Positions 24,792 to 34,781 of a stretch of DNA of 64,000 nt are shown here, piece by piece (within the stretch, counting starts at the first letter, position 1; each line of letters opens with the position of its first letter). The notes beneath the pieces are model-generated. The model did no database searches. It saw only the letters and a list, made by a program, of their open reading frames with translations, and was not told where the DNA came from. The position numbers and the translations under genes were made by a program. This DNA comes from Corynebacterium tuberculostearicum (GTDB lineage Bacteria; Actinomycetota; Actinomycetes; Mycobacteriales; Mycobacteriaceae). The stretch covers positions 1,736,001 through 1,800,000 of the forward strand of contig NZ_CP073096.1 in the NCBI RefSeq assembly GCF_030503735.1. Direction: 5' to 3'.

Positions 24792-24814
24792 GAAAAGCCG
24801 CCCGAAGGCGGCTC
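24792..24814 (-). terminator. Original tRNA-Arg(ACG) terminator, now displaced by the IS
   Basis: Arms AGCCGCC and GGCGGCT with a 4-base loop are followed on the minus strand by TTTTCTTG. The hairpin directly abuts the duplicated tail of tRNA-Arg at 24818-24832, so it was that tRNA's terminator before a 1.4-kb IS landed between them. Confidence 0.75.
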
Positions 24815-24817
24815 ATT

Positions 24818-24832
24818 TTGTGCGCCCGGAGG
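24818..24832. repeat. Left target-site duplication of IS copy 1 (tRNA-Arg tail)
   Basis: The 15 bases TTGTGCGCCCGGAGG match 26267-26281 on the other side of the IS. They are a copy of the last 12 bases of tRNA-Arg(ACG) plus three beyond. One further base outwards differs (T on the left, A on the right). Confidence 0.9.
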
Positions 24833-24845
24833 TGTCTGAGTTCAT

Positions 24846-24975
24846 GACATATTTGACAGTCTGTGCCTGAGGGAACCGTCGTGATGCTTGACAGATCAGC
24901 CGCGACATATTTGACGCTTAGGGCTACCTTACCGTGTCGGGTGATGCTTGACTGGTGAGTCGGGACATGTTTGAC
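24846..24975 (+). repeat. Three spaced transposase-binding-like repeats at the IS left end
   Basis: GACAT(A/G)TTTGAC occurs at 24846-24857, 24904-24915 and 24964-24975, a period of 58-60 bp. GTGATGCTTGAC also occurs twice, 60 bp apart (24881 and 24941). The third copy overlaps the start of the transposase gene, so transposase binding there could repress its own expression. The right end has two inverted copies at 26218-26229 and 26241-26252. The same array is present in copy 2. Confidence 0.75.
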
Positions 24976-26172
24976 ACTATGAACAGTCCTAACCGCAATA
25001 TGGCCATTGTCCGAGCAGTCCGTGAGCAAAAGCGCAGCCCGTCAAAGGTAGCTAAGCAATTTGGTATTTCCCGGCAGCGCGTCTATCAAATCCTCAACGC
25101 TTTCGACGCCGGCGGTGCCAAGGCTGTCGCGCCGAAATCACGTGCCCCACACACCCATCCACAGGCCGTGCCAGATAAGTTGCGGGCAGAAATTGTTACT
25201 ATCCGTCGTCAACTAACGCGTCATGGGCTTGATGCAGGACCCGAGACTATTGCTTTTCACCTTGAAAGAGACGGAAAACGCAGCCCGTCTACGTCTACGA
25301 TTCGACGCATCTTGGCCAAAGAGGGACTTATCATCCCGGAGCCGAAAAAGAAGCCTAAAAGCTCATTTATCCGCTTTGAAGCAGCCATGCCCAATGAATG
25401 CTGGCAGGCAGACATCACCCATATCTTCCTAGCCGATGGCACCAGGGTTGACGTCCTAGATTTCCTCGATGACCACTCGCGCTACCTTTTATCGATTACC
25501 GCTGCCAGCTCTTTTACAGGCCCACAAGTAGCTGCTGAGCTTACTCGATTGATAACAACCTATGGTCCGCCAGCATCGACGCTTACAGATAACGGGTTAG
25601 TCTTTACTGCCCGCTTAGCTGGGCGTAAAGGCGGACGAAATGCTTTTGAAAAAGTCTTGAGTACGTACAAAATTCAGCAGAAAAACGGCCGCCCAGGCCA
25701 CCCGCAAACGCAAGGGAAAATTGAGAGATTCCACCAAACACTCAAAAAATGGATCACTGCCAGACCACCCGCGAAAACTATAGGTGAACTGCAAGAACAA
25801 CTAGATGAATTTCGCGACTACTACAACATTCACCGCCCTCACCGAGCGCTTGGCAGGCGCAGCCCGCACCACAGCTACACGACAGGACCCAAAGCCAGCC
25901 CAGGTGATAACCCAAAGCAAGAATGGCGCACCAGAAACGACATTGTCTGGGACAACGGCAAAGTCACTGTGCGCTACGCTGGCAAGCTTTTCCACTTAGG
26001 CATCGGTAGAGCCTTTAAGCGACAAAAAGTCCTCATGGTCATAGCCGACAATCACGTCATCACATCACTAGCCGAAACCGGCGAAGTGATCACCGAGCAC
26101 TACATCGACACAGCCCGCGACTATCAAAGGCCCTACTGGAAACAAGGAGACCCGCCCCAAGCCACGAAATAA
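24955..26172 (+). CDS. DDE transposase of the IS (copy 1)
   Basis: The 405-residue transposase begins with a helix-turn-helix (SPSKVAKQFGISRQRVYQIL, about residues 24-43). A second winged region and an rve/DDE core follow: Asp in WQADITHIF, Asp in TLTDNGLVF, and Glu in HPQTQGKIERFHQTLK. A small beta domain ends the protein. The frame starts at GTG; ATG codons at 24967 and 24979 are alternative starts and may be the real ones. It is identical to the second copy, so the duplication is recent and both are likely functional. It is transcribed towards the tRNA-Arg gene. Confidence 0.95.
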   Translation: MSRDMFDTMNSPNRNMAIVRAVREQKRSPSKVAKQFGISRQRVYQILNAFDAGGAKAVAPKSRAPHTHPQAVPDKLRAEIVTIRRQLTRHGLDAGPETIAFHLERDGKRSPSTSTIRRILAKEGLIIPEPKKKPKSSFIRFEAAMPNECWQADITHIFLADGTRVDVLDFLDDHSRYLLSITAASSFTGPQVAAELTRLITTYGPPASTLTDNGLVFTARLAGRKGGRNAFEKVLSTYKIQQKNGRPGHPQTQGKIERFHQTLKKWITARPPAKTIGELQEQLDEFRDYYNIHRPHRALGRRSPHHSYTTGPKASPGDNPKQEWRTRNDIVWDNGKVTVRYAGKLFHLGIGRAFKRQKVLMVIADNHVITSLAETGEVITEHYIDTARDYQRPYWKQGDPPQATK

Positions 26173-26175
26173 AAG

Positions 26176-26217
26176 AAACCGGCACTCCAGAACAAAAAGC
26201 AACTGGAATGCCGGTTT
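26176..26217. terminator. Bidirectional terminator inside the IS right end (copy 1)
   Basis: Fifteen-base arms (AAACCGGCACTCCAG and CTGGAATGCCGGTTT, one mismatch) enclose a 12-base loop. On the plus strand it ends the transposase mRNA. On the minus strand the stem is followed by TTTCTTTTATTT, so it would also terminate transcripts leaving the adjacent tRNA-Arg about 50-95 bases past its 3' end. Confidence 0.8.
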
Positions 26218-26266
26218 GTCAACAATGTCGCGACTCATCTGTCAAACATGTCGCGACTCATAACAA

Positions 26267-26281
26267 TTGTGCGCCCGGAGG
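26267..26281. repeat. Right target-site duplication of IS copy 1
   Basis: This matches 24818-24832. It forms the actual 3' end of the intact tRNA-Arg(ACG) gene, so the insertion did not destroy the tRNA. Confidence 0.9.
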
Positions 26282-26342
26282 GATTCGAACCCCCAACCTT
26301 CTGATCCGTAGTCAGATGCTCTATCCGTTGAGCTACGGGCGC
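26270..26342 (-). tRNA. tRNA-Arg (anticodon ACG)
   Basis: Acceptor arms GCGCCCG and CGGGCGC pair, with discriminator A and no encoded CCA. The anticodon loop CTACGGA gives ACG, the substrate of TadA, which is encoded in this window. The T-loop is TTCGAAT. An IS lies directly downstream, its target duplication supplying the last 12 bases of the gene. Confidence 0.95.
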
Positions 26343-26462
26343 AGACCGTTGGTAAGCAGTGCGTGGGCTCTGCTGTGCAACGAGAAATAACTATACCCAC
26401 GGTCTGGGAAACTACCAAATCCCCAGTTCACTTGGTGTATACCCACGAGAAGCAGGAAGGCT

Positions 26463-27536
26463 TTAGGAAGGAATGAGGGCGGCAACTTCGGCGTCGGAAA
26501 GCAGTGCGTCCCGGAAAGCCTGCAGGGTGGCCTCGTGGTCGAAGTCAATGCCGATGAGAACAATTTCAGCACCAGGGGTCACGCCATTGGCCGCCCAGAG
26601 GGACGCGGGCATGATCTGGAGGTTCGGGCCGGCTTGCTGCCAGGCGTGCGCGACGCGCAGATCGGTATCGATCCAGCAATAACCCTTGGAACGCACCAGA
26701 CCGGTACTGGCCCGCAGGGCGGCAAGTAAGCGCTCGCGATTAAAGGGCCGATCCGCACGAAAGACCACCGAGGAGATGCCATATTCCTCAGTTTCGGGAG
26801 TATGCGGGTTGGCCAGCTCTTCGGCGTAGCCGTGATAGGCGGCAGCGGTAGCGGTGTCATACAAGTGGGCATCGAGGACGAGCCGCGGGTCGATGACACC
26901 GTTGGTAACAATCACGACGCGGGCGCGGGGGTTCATGGCGCGCACGGTAGCGATGACCCGTTCGGTTTCGGCAGCATCAACCACGTCGGTCTTGGTAATG
27001 AAGATAAGGTCGGCGAACTCAACTTGGTCCACTAGGAGGTCAGCCACGGTGCGGTCATCGCCGGGCGTGGCTTCGATGCTTTGGGACGCAAGGCTCTTAC
27101 CACGGCGCAGCTGGTCAAGAAAGGTGGAAGCGTCCACGAGGGAGACCATGGTGTCGATGGGGGCGACGTCGGCAAGCGTCGTGCCATCCTCAAACTCCCA
27201 CTCAAAGGTGGCCGCAACGGGCATGGGTTCGGAAATGCCAGTGGATTCGATGACGATCTGGTCGAAGCGGCCGGAGCGGGCGAGCTTGCCCACGGATTCA
27301 ATAAGGTCTTCGCGCAGGGTGCAGCATATGCAGCCATTAGAGAGCTCGACAAAGCGATCCTCCCCGCGCTCAAGGTGGCCCTCGCCAGCAACGAGGGCGG
27401 CGTCAATATTGACCTCGGAGAAGTCATTGACAATGACGGCTAGCTTGCGCCCTTCGCGGTTGGCCAGCAGATGGTTTAAGAGCGTGGTTTTTCCGCTGCC
27501 CAAAAATCCGGACAGCACAGTAACGGGTGTAGCCAT
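26463..27536 (-). CDS. CobW/COG0523-type G3E GTPase, probable metal chaperone
   Basis: The protein (357 residues) has the P-loop [16 protein letters not shown] near the N-terminus and the metal-binding GCICCTL (68-74). The switch region EVNIDAALV and a CobW C-terminal domain (about 240-345) follow. COG0523 proteins deliver zinc or other metals to client enzymes under metal limitation; many are controlled by Zur. The start codon sits inside the 3' arm of a perfect 17-bp inverted repeat, so expression may be controlled at that site. No client gene is adjacent. It is transcribed towards tRNA-Arg. Confidence 0.9.
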
Positions 27537-27573
27537 TCCCTAATGGTAACGTTTTTCATTAGGGAATGGCTAC
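27529..27573. promoter_or_regulatory. Perfect 17-bp inverted repeat over the CobW start codon
   Basis: Arms at 27529-27545 and 27557-27573 (each reading GTAGCCATTCCCTAATG or its complement) flank an 11-base loop. The CobW start codon and its ribosome site lie in one arm. The centre TAATGGTAACGTTTTTCATTA is A/T-rich and semi-palindromic, which resembles Fur/Zur-type operators. The structure could be an operator, an mRNA hairpin that hides the start, or the upstream gene's terminator. Confidence 0.6.
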
Positions 27574-27578
27574 GTCGC

Positions 27579-29153
27579 CTAGATTGAGAGGCCGAAGATA
27601 GGCACTGCCAGCAGGTACACCGTAAGGGTAATGAGGAAGATGCCGATGATATTTAGGCCGAGGCCACCCTTGATCATCTCGCCAATCTTGACGTACCCAG
27701 AGCCATAGGCAATGGCGTTCGGCGGGGTGGCCACGGGGAGCATAAATGCACAGGTTGCGGCCAAGGCCACCGGGACGGTGAGGAGCAGGACGTTGATATC
27801 GCCATCGGCAGTAAGTCCCACACCCACGGCAACGCCGCCCATGATTGGAATGAAGGTGGCCGCCGTTGCGGTATTGGAGGTGATCTCCGTCAGGAAGAGC
27901 ACCAGTGCGGCTACGGCGGCGACGATAAGGACAACTGGGAGGACGCTCAGTCCCTTAGCCATCTCACCAATCCACAGGGACAGTCCGGAAGAATTAAAGA
28001 CCGAGGACAGCGACAGGCCGCCACCGAAGAGCAAGAGAACGTCCCACGGCATCTCATTGGCAGTCTTCCAGTCGAGCAGTCGAGTGCGACGCTGATTATC
28101 CGCCGGAAGAATAAAGAGCACGATGCCGGCAGCGATACCCACGATGGCATCGTCATAGTTCTCAAATTCCTTAAGCACCAACGGCAGGATTACCCACGCT
28201 GCGGCGGCCAGAACAAAGATGATGCCGGTCATAATCTGAGGGCGGGTCCAAGGGCCGAGGGCCTTAATTTCATCGTCGATAAGCTCGCGGCCGCCCGGAA
28301 TATCCTTCATCTCTGGCTTGAAAATGGTGATAAGTAGGGCCCAAGCAATCAGCAGGAAGATCACGGCGAGCGGCACACCGACCGCCATCCATCGACCAAA
28401 GCCAAGGGTAACGCCCCAGGTATCGGCCATATACGCGTTCAGGAAGGCATTCGGCGGGGTGCCGATGAGCGTGCCCAGCGAACCAATAGACGCGGAATAG
28501 GCGATGCCCAGCATGAGGGCCGTGGCGAATTTCTTTTGCTTCTCCCAGCCGCCTACGGTCTCTGCGGTCAGCGAGAGCACCGAGGTGCCAATAGGCAGCA
28601 TCACCACGGCCGTAGCCGTATTAGAAACCCACATGGACAAAAATCCGGTGGCCAGCATAAAGCCCAAGATGAGGCGCTTGGGAGAGGTACCAATCACCTT
28701 CACCACATAGAGGGCCAAGCGGCGGTGCAGGTTCCAGCGCTGCAGGGACAGTGCGATAAGGAAGCCACCCATGAACAAGAAAATGGTGGCGGAGGCATAC
28801 GGGGCGCCTACCTCCTTGATTGATCCGACGCCAGCTAGTGGGAAAATAACCAACGGAAGCAGCGCGGTGGCAGCGAGCGGAATAGCTTCAGTCATCCACC
28901 ACACGCCCATAAGGATCGTCACCGCTGCAACAGCGCGGATGGCACCAAGCGTGTACTCGGCTTCCGGATCTGCGCCAGAGGAGCCTTGGACTGTCTCGAT
29001 GGCATTGGAGGGGAAGATAAAGAAGACAAGTACCGCCAATGCCAAGCCCACGAAGAGGCCAATAAACTGCCGGCGCCATTCGCCGCGTGGGACTTTAGGG
29101 GCTTCGTCACCTTCGGTGTGGGCGGTGGATTCGTGAGTATGCGGGGTGGTCAT
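27579..29153 (-). CDS. DASS-family (SLC13) dicarboxylate/Na+ symporter
   Basis: This 524-residue membrane protein has about 12-13 hydrophobic segments. Family marks are WMTEAIPLAATALLPLVIFP early, MWVSNTATAVVMLPIG (first SNT substrate/sodium motif) and LTEITSNTATAATFIP (second SNT motif). The two SNT repeats are diagnostic for sodium-coupled uptake of dicarboxylates such as succinate, malate or fumarate. Its exact substrate is not visible. A hydrophilic, His-rich N-terminus precedes the first helix. Its stop lies 43 bp before the CobW start, with a large inverted repeat in between. Confidence 0.9.
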   Translation of the reverse strand: MTTPHTHESTAHTEGDEAPKVPRGEWRRQFIGLFVGLALAVLVFFIFPSNAIETVQGSSGADPEAEYTLGAIRAVAAVTILMGVWWMTEAIPLAATALLPLVIFPLAGVGSIKEVGAPYASATIFLFMGGFLIALSLQRWNLHRRLALYVVKVIGTSPKRLILGFMLATGFLSMWVSNTATAVVMLPIGTSVLSLTAETVGGWEKQKKFATALMLGIAYSASIGSLGTLIGTPPNAFLNAYMADTWGVTLGFGRWMAVGVPLAVIFLLIAWALLITIFKPEMKDIPGGRELIDDEIKALGPWTRPQIMTGIIFVLAAAAWVILPLVLKEFENYDDAIVGIAAGIVLFILPADNQRRTRLLDWKTANEMPWDVLLLFGGGLSLSSVFNSSGLSLWIGEMAKGLSVLPVVLIVAAVAALVLFLTEITSNTATAATFIPIMGGVAVGVGLTADGDINVLLLTVPVALAATCAFMLPVATPPNAIAYGSGYVKIGEMIKGGLGLNIIGIFLITLTVYLLAVPIFGLSI

Positions 29154-29411
29154 ACCGCGCGCTCCTTCACTAAGAGAGGACTGTGCTGAGGGATATGCTC
29201 CGTACTTCCCAGGTTATTAGCTGGCCTAGACAGCAAATAGAAAGTTATCTAATTCACTGCGAAGCATGCACTGACCATACAAAACATGTGACGCAGAAAC
29301 CATATCTCGTCACAATAAACCACCCCCACACCCCCGAATAGCACACACCACACCTGCCTAAAACCAGAAATGGCTCCACCACTCCTCCACCCCCGATCGA
29401 TGAAGGATGGG
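29154..29411. other. AT-rich promoter-containing spacer before the DASS gene
   Basis: This 258-bp gap separates the end of mgtE from the start of the DASS transporter. It is clearly lower in GC than its neighbours. It includes TGTGAC ... GTCACA (29287-29314) as a loose inverted repeat. No additional gene or RNA was seen. It presumably holds the transporter promoter. Confidence 0.4.
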
Positions 29412-30776
29412 TTAAATGCCCAGGACGGTCTTAGCAATGAGGAAGTAAATAATGAGGCCCGTAGCATCACAGAAGGTAGAGATAAACGGGTTGGAAAAGA
29501 CCGCCGGATCGGCACCGATGGTCTTAGCCACGATGGGCATCAGCCCGCCTACGGTCGCAGAGATCGAGCAAATCAAAAACAGCGTCGAACCGATGACTAG
29601 GCCGATGCTCATGCCATAGACCAGCGTAGCCAGGCCCAGTCCCGCCAAGCCGAGCACGGCACCTAGCAACATGCCGACGCGTAGCTCGCGCCACAAAACG
29701 GCAACGAGGTCGCGGGTGCGGACATCGCCCAGCGCCAAAGCACGGGTCACAGTGGTGGCAGCCTGATTGCCGGTATTGCCACCGGTGCCGGTCAGCAGCG
29801 GGATAAATAGTGAGAGAACCACGGCCTTGGCCAGCGTGCCTTCAAAGGAGTCCAATACTTGCACGGTCAGCAGCGCAGAAACTGCCAGCACGAGCAGCCA
29901 TACGATGCGCGAGCGCACCAGCTTGAGCAAAGGCGTGGATAGGTACGGCTGCTGAAGGGCCTCGGTACCGCCAGCACGAGCGGAGTCTTCGCTATCTTCT
30001 TCCTCCACAATGTCCGTAGCGTCATCCCACGTCAGCAGACCGACCAAGCGGTGCGAATCATCCACGATTGGCAGCGCAAGAATGTCCAATGGGAGGAACC
30101 AACGCGCGGTTTCTTCGGCGTCAGCACTAGCACGGGCAAAAATGGGGTCGTGCATAATATCGGCCATGGTCAGCGCGGCATCAGCGGTGAAGATTTCGCG
30201 CAGGCTCACCACTCCCACAAGACGCCTATCCTCGCGGGTAATGGGCACGGTGTAGATGGTTTCCAGCTCATGTGCGGTCTCCCGCAGTTTAAACAGTGCG
30301 TCCCTAACGCTCATGTCCGGGTGGATTCCAGGCACCTCGGGTGACATTCGGCGCCCCACCGAACCCTTGACATAGCCCAACACCACGCCCGTGACATCGC
30401 GCTTGGATTGAGTCAGTGAGCGCAGCAGCCGGTCCGCAATCTCCGCGGGCAGCTCATCCAGCAAAGCCACGCGGTCTTCCGGATCAAGCTCGTCGAAGAA
30501 CTCATAGACATCAGCATTGCCCAGCTCATCGATGATATCGGCCTGATGCTTTGCATCGAGGGCATCAAAGACGACGATTGATTTCTGGCGCGGCAGCAAG
30601 CGCAGGGCCAAGGCTGAGCGGACGGCATTTTGCCGCTCGACGACGGCGATGAGTTCCTGCAGGGGCACCCTCTCCAGGAGTTCCTGCAGGCGTGGGGCCT
30701 TGGTGGGGTCAATGGCGTCTTCTTGCTTGAGCCATGCCTCAACAATATCGCTAGCCCGCTCGGTGGTCTCCGCCAT
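29412..30776 (-). CDS. mgtE: Magnesium transporter MgtE
   Basis: MgtE is a dimeric Mg2+ channel gated by cytoplasmic Mg2+. The 454-residue protein has an N-domain of helical repeats (about 20-135), two CBS domains (about 140-265) with acidic gating residues, and five membrane helices at the C-terminus. The pore region motif PLLTGTGGNTGNQAATTVTRALA and the C-terminal DATGLIIYFLIAKTVLGI are typical. No magnesium riboswitch-like structure was recognised in the 138-bp spacer upstream. It follows the DUF202 pair on the same strand. Confidence 0.94.
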   Translation of the reverse strand: MAETTERASDIVEAWLKQEDAIDPTKAPRLQELLERVPLQELIAVVERQNAVRSALALRLLPRQKSIVVFDALDAKHQADIIDELGNADVYEFFDELDPEDRVALLDELPAEIADRLLRSLTQSKRDVTGVVLGYVKGSVGRRMSPEVPGIHPDMSVRDALFKLRETAHELETIYTVPITREDRRLVGVVSLREIFTADAALTMADIMHDPIFARASADAEETARWFLPLDILALPIVDDSHRLVGLLTWDDATDIVEEEDSEDSARAGGTEALQQPYLSTPLLKLVRSRIVWLLVLAVSALLTVQVLDSFEGTLAKAVVLSLFIPLLTGTGGNTGNQAATTVTRALALGDVRTRDLVAVLWRELRVGMLLGAVLGLAGLGLATLVYGMSIGLVIGSTLFLICSISATVGGLMPIVAKTIGADPAVFSNPFISTFCDATGLIIYFLIAKTVLGI

Positions 30777-30914
30777 GGCCTACCCGCCTTTCCAGCCCCA
30801 GGTTATTGACTTCAGCCTTCTTAGACTACGTCATTTGCCCAGAAAATCCGCCAGAGATCCTCCCCGGCCGCATGACAACGCCCAGAAGCCACCTCAATGA
30901 TGGCACCGGGATGA

Positions 30915-31223
30915 CTACAGGAATAGACCCCACAGGGCGAAGGCTGCCAGCAAAGACACCAGACCGGCAGTACTGGCCAAAATGATTGCATGCGGAAGGG
31001 GAGCCTGGGAAGACAGGGCGACGTCGACAAGCGAGGCACGTTGCCCCACCGCCAAGACCAGCGCCAGCACCCCGGCGGCAAGGAGGACGAGCGGCAAAAA
31101 GACGTGCACACTCACCGCCCGCATCACGCCTAGCAACACTAAGGAAAGCGCCAAAAGGGTGCGCTGCCAAGACAGGCGCGTGCGCTCTGGTTGCAGACCA
31201 GGATCAAAGGGCTGGTTAGACAA
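30915..31223 (-). CDS. DUF202 family membrane protein
   Basis: The protein has 102 residues, with an N-terminal RTRLSWQRTLLAL segment (the DUF202 signature R-T-x-L-x-W-x-R-T) and three hydrophobic helices. Function of DUF202 proteins is unknown. The start is TTG. It overlaps by 8 bp the stop that the upstream DUF202 gene would reach in its shifted frame. This arrangement (a YidH-like gene followed by a second DUF202 gene) is common and implies a two-subunit membrane protein. Confidence 0.8.
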   Translation of the reverse strand: MSNQPFDPGLQPERTRLSWQRTLLALSLVLLGVMRAVSVHVFLPLVLLAAGVLALVLAVGQRASLVDVALSSQAPLPHAIILASTAGLVSLLAAFALWGLFL

Positions 31224-31577
31224 GGAACTCGCCTACCAAAAGCGCACCAGCCACCACCACGATTACAGCAACAAGGACCGGAAGGCCGAAACTAAACGGT
31301 AGCGATCGATTCTCTCGCATCGCGCGCTCTGATTGCTTCCAATGCCCCACGCCACCACGGGCAAGATTATGGCGACTATCAGCATGAAGACCGATACCGC
31401 AGCACGCAGGGTGCCTGGCAGCGGAACGTCAAAGGCCTCAAGTGCTACTCCGCCAGCAATCAACGCCAGGGAAGTGCGAATCCACGCCAGGAACGTGCGC
31501 TCATTGGCGAGCGTGAAACGCGGATCAGGGTCGGTGCCAACTGCAAACACCGAACGGGGAAACCTCGAGTCACTCAT
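31216..31577 (-). pseudogene. YidH-like DUF202 gene with an apparent one-base frameshift
   Basis: From the ATG the frame encodes MSDSRFPRS...RFTLANERTFLAWIRTSLALIAGGVALEAF and a second helix ending LPVVAWG. As written it then runs off into SNQSARCERIDR and stops at 31263 without a third helix. In the neighbouring frame the sequence continues KQSERAMRENRSLPFSFGLP and a perfect third helix to TAA at 31216. The switch point is a run of four C on the plus strand (31345-31348); five would restore the frame. It may be a real mutation, a sequencing error or programmed frameshifting. Confidence 0.75.
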
Positions 31578-31695
31578 GGGCACCACTTTATATTCATTTG
31601 CCTCCTGCGTCGCTATAAGCCCACGTAATGCTTCACCTTCCCGTAGCCTCATAGGCACAGGCCAGTCCCCCTGAGCCAAGGAGCACCCATCCCCT

Positions 31696-32457
31696 ATGAC
31701 CCTGCGCTTATGCAGCTACGTGCCGTCCTCCCCGCACGAGGACGAGTTTTTCAGCAAAGAGAACATCAAGCGCGTTAGCACCCCAAATACCCGCCCCGAT
31801 GCCACCGGCTTGCGCGAGACCGTTTTTAACAACGGCCCGTGCCCCTCCAAGAACCATACGAAATTCGACTTCCTCTTCCAGCTCTTCCATATGGGTAGCA
31901 TCATAATTCTGGGACTCTTCCCCTTTGCTCTTACCGGACTCGATTTCCGCATCGCCTTGCTCATCAGCCTGCCTATCATCGCATTCGGCATTTCCAAGCC
32001 CGTTCGCTGGCTGGCCTCGACCCACAATGAGCGCACTCTGCTCCGCACAGCGTGGGCCAATAACTGGCTCGAGTTTTATCCCGTACTGGTGGGAAACTTC
32101 TACCACTTTGATACCAAGGAAGAAAAGAACCCTGTAGGCGATGACCACTATTATTTCCACCAAGCGCGCATCATGGTGTTCTTTCCTGATGGCTCCACGG
32201 AAGTACTACCAGAGCTCGCAACCGTGAAAGCTGTCGACTATCCGCCTGAATTGATGAGGTCAGATGGCACTGCCATTGCGGAAAACCCCGACGATCTGCG
32301 TGTGAGCCCCACCGTTAATAATGGCTGGGCACTACTGGCCGTACTCGCCGGTGACCCGGTATCCACAGGCACTCCCAATATCGGCTTGGATGAGCAGCAG
32401 ATAGAAGCAGCACTTGCCCAGGTGGAGCGCGAGTGGGCAACCGACATTCTGAACTAA
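31696..32457 (+). CDS. Membrane protein of unknown function
   Basis: The protein has 253 residues, with two adjacent hydrophobic segments (about residues 60-98, GSIIILGLFPFALTGLDFRIALLISLPIIAFGI) and a cytoplasmic-type C-terminal domain of about 145 residues. It has no family that I recognise. The N-terminal 55 residues are polar. It is divergent from the DUF202 pair and followed 28 bp later by a Nudix hydrolase on the same strand. No signal peptide or enzyme motif is visible. Confidence 0.6.
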   Translation: MTLRLCSYVPSSPHEDEFFSKENIKRVSTPNTRPDATGLRETVFNNGPCPSKNHTKFDFLFQLFHMGSIIILGLFPFALTGLDFRIALLISLPIIAFGISKPVRWLASTHNERTLLRTAWANNWLEFYPVLVGNFYHFDTKEEKNPVGDDHYYFHQARIMVFFPDGSTEVLPELATVKAVDYPPELMRSDGTAIAENPDDLRVSPTVNNGWALLAVLAGDPVSTGTPNIGLDEQQIEAALAQVEREWATDILN

Positions 32458-32485
32458 CCCGCCGCAGCGAGTTATAGTCGGGCCC

Positions 32486-32869
32486 ATGATTGAAGTTGCC
32501 GCCGTAGTTTTCCGTAATTCCTTTGGCCATGTCCTCACCGTGTGCAAGGATTCCTCCACCAAGTTTCAGTTACCTGGCGGCAAGCTTGAGGCTGGCGAAA
32601 CCCCTACACAGGCCGCAGCCCGCGAGGTCGCAGAAGAAATCGGCGTTGACGTCCGCCTCCCGGAGCTATCCCCGCTCGGCACCTTCGACGCGCCGGCCGC
32701 CAACGAACCCGGCGAAACCGTGCGCGGCCACATCTTTACCTATCCCCGCCCAATCCTTGCCCGCGCATCCGCAGAGATTGCCGAACTCGCATGGGTAGAC
32801 CCCACCAACCCAAATCGCGAGCTCGCCCACCTGCTGCGCGACGAGGTCTTTCCTGCCCTAGAATCCTAA
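32486..32869 (+). CDS. Nudix hydrolase
   Basis: This 127-residue protein has a complete Nudix box: GGKLEAGETPTQAAAREVAEEIGV (about residues 30-53), matching G-x5-E-x7-R-E-x-x-E-E-x-G. It hydrolyses a nucleoside diphosphate linked to another moiety. Substrate is not evident; small proteins of this sort are often MutT-like house-cleaning enzymes. The ATG was chosen because the fold starts MIEVAAVVFRN. It lies close behind the membrane protein gene and may be co-transcribed. Confidence 0.9.
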   Translation: MIEVAAVVFRNSFGHVLTVCKDSSTKFQLPGGKLEAGETPTQAAAREVAEEIGVDVRLPELSPLGTFDAPAANEPGETVRGHIFTYPRPILARASAEIAELAWVDPTNPNRELAHLLRDEVFPALES

Positions 32870-32967
32870 GGCCCTACTTTATCCCTTAAAAATTTCCTAT
32901 TGCAGCTCCTGGGAGGGCAACCTAGAGTCATTTTCATCAGAATTGAGTGATGAAAGGACTGACCCCC

Positions 32968-33171
32968 ATGCCGCAGCAATCCACACCCGGACCTATCACG
33001 ACGATTACCTTCCTCGTCCTAGGGATCATTAGCTCTGTTATCGCCATTCTCATGGTGCCTGCCCTCTTCCACGAGGTCACTTCCCTGCGCGCTGCGGCTT
33101 TTACCGGAAGCTTCATCTTCGGCGTTGGCATGCTCACGCTCTTCCGCCGCTGCGCCAAGTACCAGCGCTAA
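32968..33171 (+). CDS. Small membrane protein
   Basis: The protein has 67 residues and starts MPQQSTPGPITT, with two hydrophobic helices (ITFLVLGIISSVIAILMVP and AAFTGSFIFGVGMLTLF) and a basic tail. The start was chosen because AAAGGA lies 8 bases before this ATG. An ATG further upstream in the same frame has no such site. No family is recognised. It lies just upstream of the second IS copy and its target tRNA-Ser. Confidence 0.6.
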   Translation: MPQQSTPGPITTITFLVLGIISSVIAILMVPALFHEVTSLRAAAFTGSFIFGVGMLTLFRRCAKYQR

Positions 33172-33209
33172 TAGCAGATTTCTCCGCTTCACGGCGCCGG
33201 CAAGAAAAA

Positions 33210-33239
33210 GAAAAATCCCGAGCGCGTACGCTCGGGATT
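33210..33239 (-). terminator. Original tRNA-Ser(GCT) terminator, now displaced by the IS
   Basis: Arms AATCCCGAGCG and CGCTCGGGATT enclose CGTA. On the minus strand a long T-rich run follows. It directly abuts the tRNA-Ser tail duplicate at 33241-33257, so it used to end that tRNA's transcript before IS copy 2 inserted. Confidence 0.8.
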
Positions 33240-33240
33240 A

Positions 33241-33257
33241 GATGGCGGAGATGAGAG
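33241..33257. repeat. Left target-site duplication of IS copy 2 (tRNA-Ser tail)
   Basis: The 17 bases GATGGCGGAGATGAGAG exactly match 34691-34707. They are a copy of the last 15 bases of tRNA-Ser(GCT), including its CCA, plus two more. Confidence 0.95.
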
Positions 33258-33379
33258 TGTCTGAGTTCATGACATATTTGACAGTCTGTGCCTGAGGGAA
33301 CCGTCGTGATGCTTGACAGATCAGCCGCGACATATTTGACGCTTAGGGCTACCTTACCGTGTCGGGTGATGCTTGACTG

Positions 33380-34597
33380 GTGAGTCGGGACATGTTTGAC
33401 ACTATGAACAGTCCTAACCGCAATATGGCCATTGTCCGAGCAGTCCGTGAGCAAAAGCGCAGCCCGTCAAAGGTAGCTAAGCAATTTGGTATTTCCCGGC
33501 AGCGCGTCTATCAAATCCTCAACGCTTTCGACGCCGGCGGTGCCAAGGCTGTCGCGCCGAAATCACGTGCCCCACACACCCATCCACAGGCCGTGCCAGA
33601 TAAGTTGCGGGCAGAAATTGTTACTATCCGTCGTCAACTAACGCGTCATGGGCTTGATGCAGGACCCGAGACTATTGCTTTTCACCTTGAAAGAGACGGA
33701 AAACGCAGCCCGTCTACGTCTACGATTCGACGCATCTTGGCCAAAGAGGGACTTATCATCCCGGAGCCGAAAAAGAAGCCTAAAAGCTCATTTATCCGCT
33801 TTGAAGCAGCCATGCCCAATGAATGCTGGCAGGCAGACATCACCCATATCTTCCTAGCCGATGGCACCAGGGTTGACGTCCTAGATTTCCTCGATGACCA
33901 CTCGCGCTACCTTTTATCGATTACCGCTGCCAGCTCTTTTACAGGCCCACAAGTAGCTGCTGAGCTTACTCGATTGATAACAACCTATGGTCCGCCAGCA
34001 TCGACGCTTACAGATAACGGGTTAGTCTTTACTGCCCGCTTAGCTGGGCGTAAAGGCGGACGAAATGCTTTTGAAAAAGTCTTGAGTACGTACAAAATTC
34101 AGCAGAAAAACGGCCGCCCAGGCCACCCGCAAACGCAAGGGAAAATTGAGAGATTCCACCAAACACTCAAAAAATGGATCACTGCCAGACCACCCGCGAA
34201 AACTATAGGTGAACTGCAAGAACAACTAGATGAATTTCGCGACTACTACAACATTCACCGCCCTCACCGAGCGCTTGGCAGGCGCAGCCCGCACCACAGC
34301 TACACGACAGGACCCAAAGCCAGCCCAGGTGATAACCCAAAGCAAGAATGGCGCACCAGAAACGACATTGTCTGGGACAACGGCAAAGTCACTGTGCGCT
34401 ACGCTGGCAAGCTTTTCCACTTAGGCATCGGTAGAGCCTTTAAGCGACAAAAAGTCCTCATGGTCATAGCCGACAATCACGTCATCACATCACTAGCCGA
34501 AACCGGCGAAGTGATCACCGAGCACTACATCGACACAGCCCGCGACTATCAAAGGCCCTACTGGAAACAAGGAGACCCGCCCCAAGCCACGAAATAA
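33380..34597 (+). CDS. DDE transposase of the IS (copy 2)
   Basis: Identical in sequence to the copy-1 transposase: N-terminal helix-turn-helix, then an rve/DDE core with Asp, Asp and Glu in WQADITHIF, TLTDNGLVF and GKIERFHQT. No stop or frameshift is present. It is transcribed towards tRNA-Ser(GCT). The start is GTG in the longest frame, with in-frame ATG codons 12 and 24 bases later. Full identity of both copies indicates very recent movement or gene conversion. Confidence 0.95.
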   Translation: MSRDMFDTMNSPNRNMAIVRAVREQKRSPSKVAKQFGISRQRVYQILNAFDAGGAKAVAPKSRAPHTHPQAVPDKLRAEIVTIRRQLTRHGLDAGPETIAFHLERDGKRSPSTSTIRRILAKEGLIIPEPKKKPKSSFIRFEAAMPNECWQADITHIFLADGTRVDVLDFLDDHSRYLLSITAASSFTGPQVAAELTRLITTYGPPASTLTDNGLVFTARLAGRKGGRNAFEKVLSTYKIQQKNGRPGHPQTQGKIERFHQTLKKWITARPPAKTIGELQEQLDEFRDYYNIHRPHRALGRRSPHHSYTTGPKASPGDNPKQEWRTRNDIVWDNGKVTVRYAGKLFHLGIGRAFKRQKVLMVIADNHVITSLAETGEVITEHYIDTARDYQRPYWKQGDPPQATK

Positions 34598-34600
34598 AAG

Positions 34601-34642
34601 AAACCGGCACTCCAGAACAAAAAGCAACTGGAATGCCGGTTT
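34601..34642. terminator. Bidirectional terminator inside the IS right end (copy 2)
   Basis: Same hairpin as at 26176-26217. It ends the transposase mRNA and is positioned to terminate transcripts from tRNA-Ser(GCT) on the minus strand. Confidence 0.8.
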
Positions 34643-34690
34643 GTCAACAATGTCGCGACTCATCTGTCAAACATGTCGCGACTCATAACA

Positions 34691-34707
34691 GATGGCGGAG
34701 ATGAGAG
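34691..34707. repeat. Right target-site duplication of IS copy 2
   Basis: Exact copy of 33241-33257. It forms the real 3' end of tRNA-Ser(GCT), keeping the gene complete. Confidence 0.95.
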
Positions 34708-34781
34708 GATTCGAACCTCCGGACCCCAGAAGGGTCAACTCCTTAGCAGGGAGCCCCATTCGGCCGCTCTGGCACATCTCC
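34693..34781 (-). tRNA. tRNA-Ser (anticodon GCT)
   Basis: Acceptor arms GGAGATG and CATCTCC pair, discriminator G, CCA encoded. The anticodon loop CTGCTAA gives GCT, reading AGC/AGU. A long variable arm is present, and the T-loop is TTCGAAT. IS copy 2 abuts the 3' end and its duplication regenerates the last 15 bases. Confidence 0.95.

Follow-up and report, generated by a model that had tools for sequence, protein, structure and literature searches.

What allows a transposable element to enter two transfer RNA (tRNA) genes at the same base and leave both of them complete? The question is raised by a 64,000-nucleotide (nt) stretch of Corynebacterium tuberculostearicum DNA (contig NZ_CP073096.1, positions 1,736,001 to 1,800,000; hereafter the window), which carries two identical 1,433-base-pair (bp) insertion sequence (IS) elements in the T-arms of tRNA-Arg(ACG) and tRNA-Ser(GCT). 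Our comparisons, which rest on sequence, point to a clade of the IS481 family whose transposase inserts at tRNA T-arms and whose insertions would rebuild the coding part of the tRNA together with its stop signal, a reading to which we assign a probability of about 0.88.

Insertion sites in the window and in this genome

Each element lay directly 3′ of a complete minus-strand tRNA gene, with a second copy of the tRNA 3′ end beyond it. The two elements point the same way relative to their tRNAs, their transposase genes running antisense to them, and they share one junction. It lies at the base just ahead of GATTCGAAC, which is the T-loop with its flanks in reverse complement, and by the standard numbering of tRNAs we take it to separate nt 61 from nt 62. 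The duplication was 17 bp and exact at the Ser site, and 15 bp and exact, or 16 bp with one mismatch, at the Arg site. These observations bore out the initial annotation: coordinates and ARAGORN calls placed the two identical elements in the tRNA genes that it had named, both right-hand duplications ended at the junction that it had claimed for this orientation, and exact repeats together with complete tRNA calls agreed with the 15-bp (Arg) and 17-bp (Ser) duplications said to leave the tRNAs complete. Under uniform insertion, the chance of a T-arm placement, calculated as 50 tRNA genes over about 2 x 2.5 million position-and-strand choices, is roughly 1e-5 per insertion and 1e-10 for both copies.

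A whole-genome search recovered eight identical copies of the element, five of which adjoined tRNAs directly: Arg(ACG), Ser(GCT), Arg(CCT), Gly(TCC) and Arg(TCT). The sixth copy (L001) had no adjoining duplication; the last 15 bp of tRNA-Gly(CCC) stood on its left and recurred, followed by GAATCGAACC, farther right beyond another inserted element. Because this tRNA end stood on both sides of L001, six of the eight copies could be placed at tRNA T-arms, at one base and in one orientation of six tRNA genes (the Rfam model called 50 tRNA genes in the genome). The intervening IS between L001 and tRNA-Gly(CCC) (G000:C1:2145686-2146995, L190) had GGGCCTGACCCC-type ends and may be IS3-like.

The remaining two copies lay outside tRNA genes. 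One of them (L005; G000:C1:1518358-1519790, also L192) abutted CCATCGAACCCG, a T-arm look-alike sharing at least 9 consecutive bases with tRNA T-arms of this genome; it breaks into the C-terminal coding end of what we read, from its open reading frame (ORF), as a mycosin-like protease gene. The other (L003) was near the 3′ end of an aldehyde dehydrogenase gene, likewise named from its ORF, at a site without T-arm likeness. Copies at unrelated sequences, which by the initial annotation would speak against targeting, thus occurred to a small extent, two of the eight copies lying outside tRNA genes; T-arm specificity is strong, not absolute.

Relatives, their clade and tandem arrays

Relatives were collected from named genome contigs, 242 genomes of the genus, 296 of the class and 246 of the phylum, and four plasmid records; they represent a sample, with up to 30 loci per genome search, among the matches listed. 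Matches were present in 26 of the 296 class genomes (E 1e-60) and 11 of the 246 phylum genomes (E 1e-50). We scanned 229 transposase-bearing records (loci up to L292, many of them duplicates) for TG...CA ends and a 14–20-bp duplication close to the ORF, with no condition on the target; duplicates, records cut by contig ends, records without detectable ends and interrupted elements, such as the 2,878-bp L030 at tRNA-Arg(ACG), were left out of the result. The 12–13-bp repeats that an earlier, looser scan had given for L235, L240 and L245 were rejected as spurious.

From the scan came 74 distinct insertions with both ends, made by relatives as remote as about 40% identity; 63 of the 74 abutted a T-arm. 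Their duplications measured 15 bp in 31 cases, 16 bp in 27 (and in 3 more with one mismatch) and at most 17 bp, in 1 (and in 1 more with one mismatch). A complete tRNA was called at 50 of these 63 sites, covering 20 tRNA types with Arg accounting for 23, and at all 50 the duplication spanned the whole tRNA 3′ end plus 0–4 extra nt. The other 13 sites gave no complete tRNA call, 6 of them giving a low-score call under relaxed settings. A further 17 T-arm junctions were represented by the right end only. The 80%-identical element of Helcobacillus massiliensis had 7 of its 8 copies at T-arms. Specificity for site and orientation, as well as 15–17-bp duplications at most two-ended insertions, both foreseen by the initial annotation, therefore extended beyond the six copies in this genome to relatives across genomes. 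An element next to a tRNA 3′ end at which no complete tRNA was called was also noted at L029, L033, L119-L121, L127, L134, L142, L284 and L363; at some of them the tRNA likeness seems to end near the anticodon, resembling integrase attachment-site remnants.

Among the 11 two-ended insertions away from T-arms, two (L038, L241) were short derivatives, in which the duplicated tRNA end was followed by a second element, and three (L003, L005, L011) belonged to clade members. The remaining six were more distant relatives (L137, L139, L143, L268, and L283 and L285, whose ends may be wrong). No match was found in the phage collection at 1e-30. The plasmid collection gave four records at 1e-40: L363 from Arthrobacter, at a T-arm fragment, L364 and L366, not at a T-arm, and L365, for which no ends were found.

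When 65 transposases, each standing for a 95%-identity cluster, were placed in a tree (rooted for drawing only), all 34 two-ended T-arm rows fell inside one group of 60 rows with 100/100 support. The rest of this group consisted of 17 right-end-only rows and 9 rows left unassigned, and the clusters of L002 and L009 contained the off-target copies. A 100/100 branch parted the group from five rows, four non-T-arm rows and L270 (L137 and L143, counted among the junctions, are absent from the tree rows). L270 was rejected as a T-arm element and left uncounted, its label coming from a loose motif and its position being outside the clade. Two-ended T-arm members came from Corynebacterium, Helcobacillus, Nocardioides, Micropruina and further genomes of several families, and L276 and L284 belonged to other classes of the phylum.

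A second group of Corynebacterium elements, about 1,416 bp long, used the same T-arm position and orientation; its transposases were IS481-like, the complete ones being 40–42% identical to that of the window. Members of both groups, short derivatives or end remnants formed tandem arrays at single tRNAs, spaced by the duplicated tRNA end, in this genome at tRNA-Arg(CCT) and in G001, G061, G201 and G222. Insertion recreates its own target, and the same tRNA is therefore usable again. Two candidates for the second-group transposase were discarded: the 549-amino-acid ORFs of this genome, beside which the sought ends were not found, and an IS256-like ORF in L096 (3733-5082), which matched a widespread separate element inside a remnant. 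That IS256-like element occurred in several genomes inside or beside T-arm elements, and a composite query with the IS256-like part matched 128 of the 242 genus genomes, mostly through this part among the matches listed. The short derivatives (L037, L038, L041, L043, L074-L078, L081, L085), mostly ~440–450 bp long, kept both element ends around a different middle and were seen in several genus genomes, mostly at tRNA T-arms.

The tRNA-facing right end and the transposase

Reading in the tRNA sense into the right end, we found a stem of at least 7 pairs with a T-rich tail in 31 of 33 distinct elements (85% right-end identity limit), compared with 4 of 33 in the transposase sense, 1 and 3 at the left end, and a mean of 2.55 (maximum 5) in shuffles. 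Inclusion of the plasmid element gave 32/34 for the right end facing the tRNA, 4/34 for the other sense, and 2/34 and 3/34 for the left end, counts to be read with the relatedness of the 34 elements in mind, which makes them non-independent. Four other settings gave 16–26/34 versus 1–9, 0–1 and 0–1, and none of six relatives outside the clade had such a right end under these or the original settings. Hairpin sequences differed widely among subgroups. Within the window's group, 17 of 32 right ends aligned as a 15-pair hairpin with compensatory changes at 6 pairs, and its 255 cells comprised 208 Watson-Crick pairs, 35 G-U, 0 A-C and 12 other combinations; the 35 G-U against 0 A-C cells indicate wobble pairs that form only in tRNA-sense RNA. 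The right end in the window (26160-26265) folds at -46.9 kcal/mol (z -6.8), and the hairpin of copy A was unlisted by a simple consensus scan, whose loop limit is 8. We conclude that the element probably carries a terminator for transcription arriving from the tRNA.

Genomes with empty sites revealed what this end may replace. In G106 both tRNAs were unoccupied and followed directly by hairpins resembling those now found beyond the window's elements; the Ser site was empty in G219 and G001, and the Arg site was empty in G016, with a different hairpin. The Arg site was occupied by a relative of the element in G001 and by a second-group end in G219. Since the hairpin directly follows the tRNA at empty sites, insertion separates the tRNA from its own terminator-like hairpin. 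Positions of all features in the window are collected in Table 1.

Table 1. Elements, duplications, tRNA genes and hairpins in the window (window coordinates)
Feature	Position	Strand	Remarks
T-arm IS481 element, copy A	24833..26265	+	1,433 bp, TGT...ACA; same sequence as copy B and six further genome copies
T-arm IS481 element, copy B	33258..34690	+	1,433 bp; same sequence as copy A
Transposase gene, copy A	24955..26172	+	405 amino acids from GTG; ATG at 24979
Transposase gene, copy B	33380..34597	+	
Target duplication, left copy at element A (tRNA-Arg 3′ end)	24818..24832		15 bp exact
Target duplication, right copy at element A	26267..26281		overlaps intact tRNA-Arg; then GATTCGAAC at 26282
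Target duplication, left copy at element B (tRNA-Ser 3′ end)	33241..33257		17 bp
Target duplication, right copy at element B	34691..34707		overlaps intact tRNA-Ser; then GATTCGAAC at 34708
tRNA-Arg(ACG)	26269..26342	-	complete despite insertion; ARAGORN; empty site in G106
tRNA-Ser(GCT)	34693..34781	-	complete despite insertion; ARAGORN; empty sites in G106, G219, G001
Terminator-like hairpin of copy A, facing tRNA	26176..26217	-	15-bp stem, one mismatch, tail CTTTTATTT
Terminator-like hairpin of copy B, facing tRNA	34601..34642	-	sequence as in copy A
Native terminator-like hairpin of tRNA-Arg	24795..24814	-	now across element from tRNA
Native terminator-like hairpin of tRNA-Ser	33214..33239	-	displaced by element

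The one long ORF of the element encodes a DDE transposase with an rve/DDE core behind a helix-turn-helix region. It passed the curated IS481 model NF033577 with 261.4 bits against a cut-off of 224, IS481 being one of the two families named by the initial annotation, and by this model the element is an IS481 member with a DDE transposase. D153, D212 and E257, invariant in an alignment of 35 sequences, were assigned as the putative DDE triad. The TGT...ACA ends form imperfect inverted repeats, with 9 of 20 end bases mismatched without gaps in the window element (row L044); many relatives had fewer end mismatches. The predicted structure (mean predicted local distance difference test score, pLDDT, 82) showed helix-turn-helix regions, an RNase H core and C-terminal strands that we read as a likely beta-barrel, and gave no view of which part reads the T-arm. 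Its best Foldseek matches were IstA and TnsB, with modest whole-chain TM-scores of 0.34–0.39. A sequence search of solved structures returned retroviral integrase cores, along with spurious alpha-actinin rows; most rows of the VIA-align list concern the catalytic core, the other domains being hardly probed.

Target reading, rival explanations and known systems

In the mechanism that we propose, one strand transfer would occur between nt 61 and 62 and the other at a distance of 15–17 nt, where the tRNA 3′ end lies or slightly beyond it. After gap repair, a duplication would remain that spans the 3′ strand of the T-stem, the acceptor strand, the discriminator base and 0–4 more nt, and the tRNA beside the right end would thereby stay complete. 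The native terminator would be pushed across the element and the right end would supply a terminator in the tRNA sense, its hairpin ending tRNA transcription, shielding the transposase gene from tRNA transcription, or both. The transposase itself would read the DNA sequence of the T-loop; on the T-loop side the cut does not move, and the opposite cut varies over 15–17 nt. DNA sequence is favoured over the folded tRNA as the target because L005 occupies a T-arm-like site and T-arms without a complete tRNA are occupied as well, including that on the Arthrobacter plasmid. Such an element appears able to spread through essential genes without apparent damage.

A target recognised as a structure, be it the T-arm hairpin or cruciform or the tRNA itself, would also account for the site, the T-arm being an inverted repeat. 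Five of the eight insertions outside the clade (L137, L143 and L268 from one genome, L139 and L364) are flanked at their 15–16-bp duplication by the two arms of a long inverted repeat, with 14–15 of 16 bases matching versus at most 13 in 500 random pairs; hairpin recognition could therefore be ancestral, which weighs against a simple sequence-reading picture. However, the other three (L283, L285, L366) matched at 7–9 of 16, the off-target site of L005 has the T-arm sequence and, by eye, no T-arm hairpin, and no inverted repeat surrounds the duplication at the 63 T-arm sites (best 4–10 of 16). We regard structural recognition as unlikely. A considerably stronger competitor, which we hold at somewhat less than an even chance, concerns the right-end hairpin, which might serve the element by blocking tRNA transcription that runs antisense into its transposase gene. 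The antisense position of this gene would predict the same hairpin orientation and place, and the sequence does not separate this role from tRNA termination; both may hold.

Near-random insertion followed by survival of the harmless events is very improbable. Insertions that leave the tRNA whole should be tolerated at tRNA 3′ ends, but if survival of harmless events were the only filter, one would not expect one and the same base and orientation at 20 tRNA types, or a preference for T-arm fragments and a T-arm-like site at which there is no tRNA to protect. Relatives outside the clade with found ends use other targets. Finally, tRNA 3′ ends are classic attachment sites, and a duplication that rebuilds the tRNA would also result from a tyrosine or serine integrase acting as in phages and islands at tRNA genes. 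We give this last explanation almost no credence: the sole long ORF is a DDE transposase, and the repeat varies by target over 15–17 bp, like the product of a staggered cut, with no shared attachment core seen.

Several observations weigh against T-arm targeting with rebuilding as we propose it. The three clade-member insertions L003, L005 and L011 missed tRNA genes; L003 and L011 show no T-arm likeness, and the clusters that hold these three copies count as T-arm rows. Where no complete tRNA was called (13 sites), the tRNA could have been truncated on its 5′ side once the element was in place. The 17 right-end-only junctions are not independent, because they were found with the T-arm motif itself. 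No terminator was called in L057 and L276 among the 34 elements, and L018, a right-end-only case outside that count, has lost one hairpin arm. The covariation set of 17 of 32 right ends excluded near-copies and deletion-bearing ends, and a native terminator was called in only 10 of 33 left flanks. We lean towards a one-protein DDE clade of Actinomycetota that evolved into rebuilders of tRNA genes through its stagger, its replacement terminator and tandem re-use of the site, with T-arm targeting possibly derived from recognition of hairpin sites. To the initial annotation these comparisons add the displacement of the native terminator, a right end that resembles a terminator, the second group, the tandem arrays and the conservation across genera.

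T-arm targeting by an IS was not found described in the titles and abstract starts that searches of an open-licence library listed (subscription papers and ISfinder fall outside this scope), nor was a T-arm-specific clade or a tRNA-facing terminator seen there. If the reading is true, a small transposase that on its own enters conserved, multi-copy, essential genes at one fixed base and does no evident harm would make a natural safe-harbour integrator, and the clade would account for tandem IS arrays next to tRNA genes. It raises the questions of how a DDE transposase reads a T-loop sequence without helper proteins, how an element-borne part of a host gene, the terminator, arose to repair the element's own insertion, and how the 15–17-bp stagger is made, a point left open in PMC10045372.

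IS481 members such as ISLxc2 and ISRe46/TnRErm46 have, like the window element, one DDE transposase gene and TGT...ACA ends. Recorded IS481 duplications are 2–15 bp, mostly 6, with ~15 bp for some members (PMC10045372, a paper in which the word tRNA does not occur), placing the 15–17 bp seen here at or just above the top of the range. Two actinobacterial members with a described target use CTAG (PMC2516522, PMC6794481), unlike the window elements with their tRNA T-arms, 15–17-bp duplications and terminator-like end facing the tRNA. The ISAjo2 group of the IS1202 family shares a single helper-free transposase, a fixed site and orientation and TGT...ACA ends, but inserts 5 bp away from dif-like targets with a 5-bp duplication, and no target was found for the long-duplication members (PMC10132070). 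The window element, at T-arms with 15–17 bp, does not use an ISAjo2-type target; the comparison with IS1202 covers these described features.

Dada transposons of eukaryotes share fixed sites in tRNA or small nuclear RNA genes, tandem copies and internally deleted derivatives; they differ in their 6–7-bp duplications, in forming a eukaryotic superfamily and in that each family has its own RNA gene (PMC3706591). Tn7-like elements with tRNA attachment sites (CRISPR-associated transposons of types I-B2, I-D and V-K) share tRNA targets and TGT/ACA ends, and Tn7-like TnsB is among the best Foldseek matches of the window transposase; they are, however, multi-gene systems that use TnsD/TniQ or a guide RNA (PMC11406308). 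Family 2 casposons of Aciduliprofundum boonei also insert at the 3′ end of a tRNA gene, with a 14–15-bp duplication, and need the leader motif TCAAATC (PMC6614799), which we read as T-loop-like. They carry a Cas1 casposase, a DNA polymerase and other genes, whereas the only long ORF of the window element encodes the DDE transposase. To the casposons and integrases that act at tRNA 3′ ends, the T-arm clade would add a counterpart of the DDE kind.

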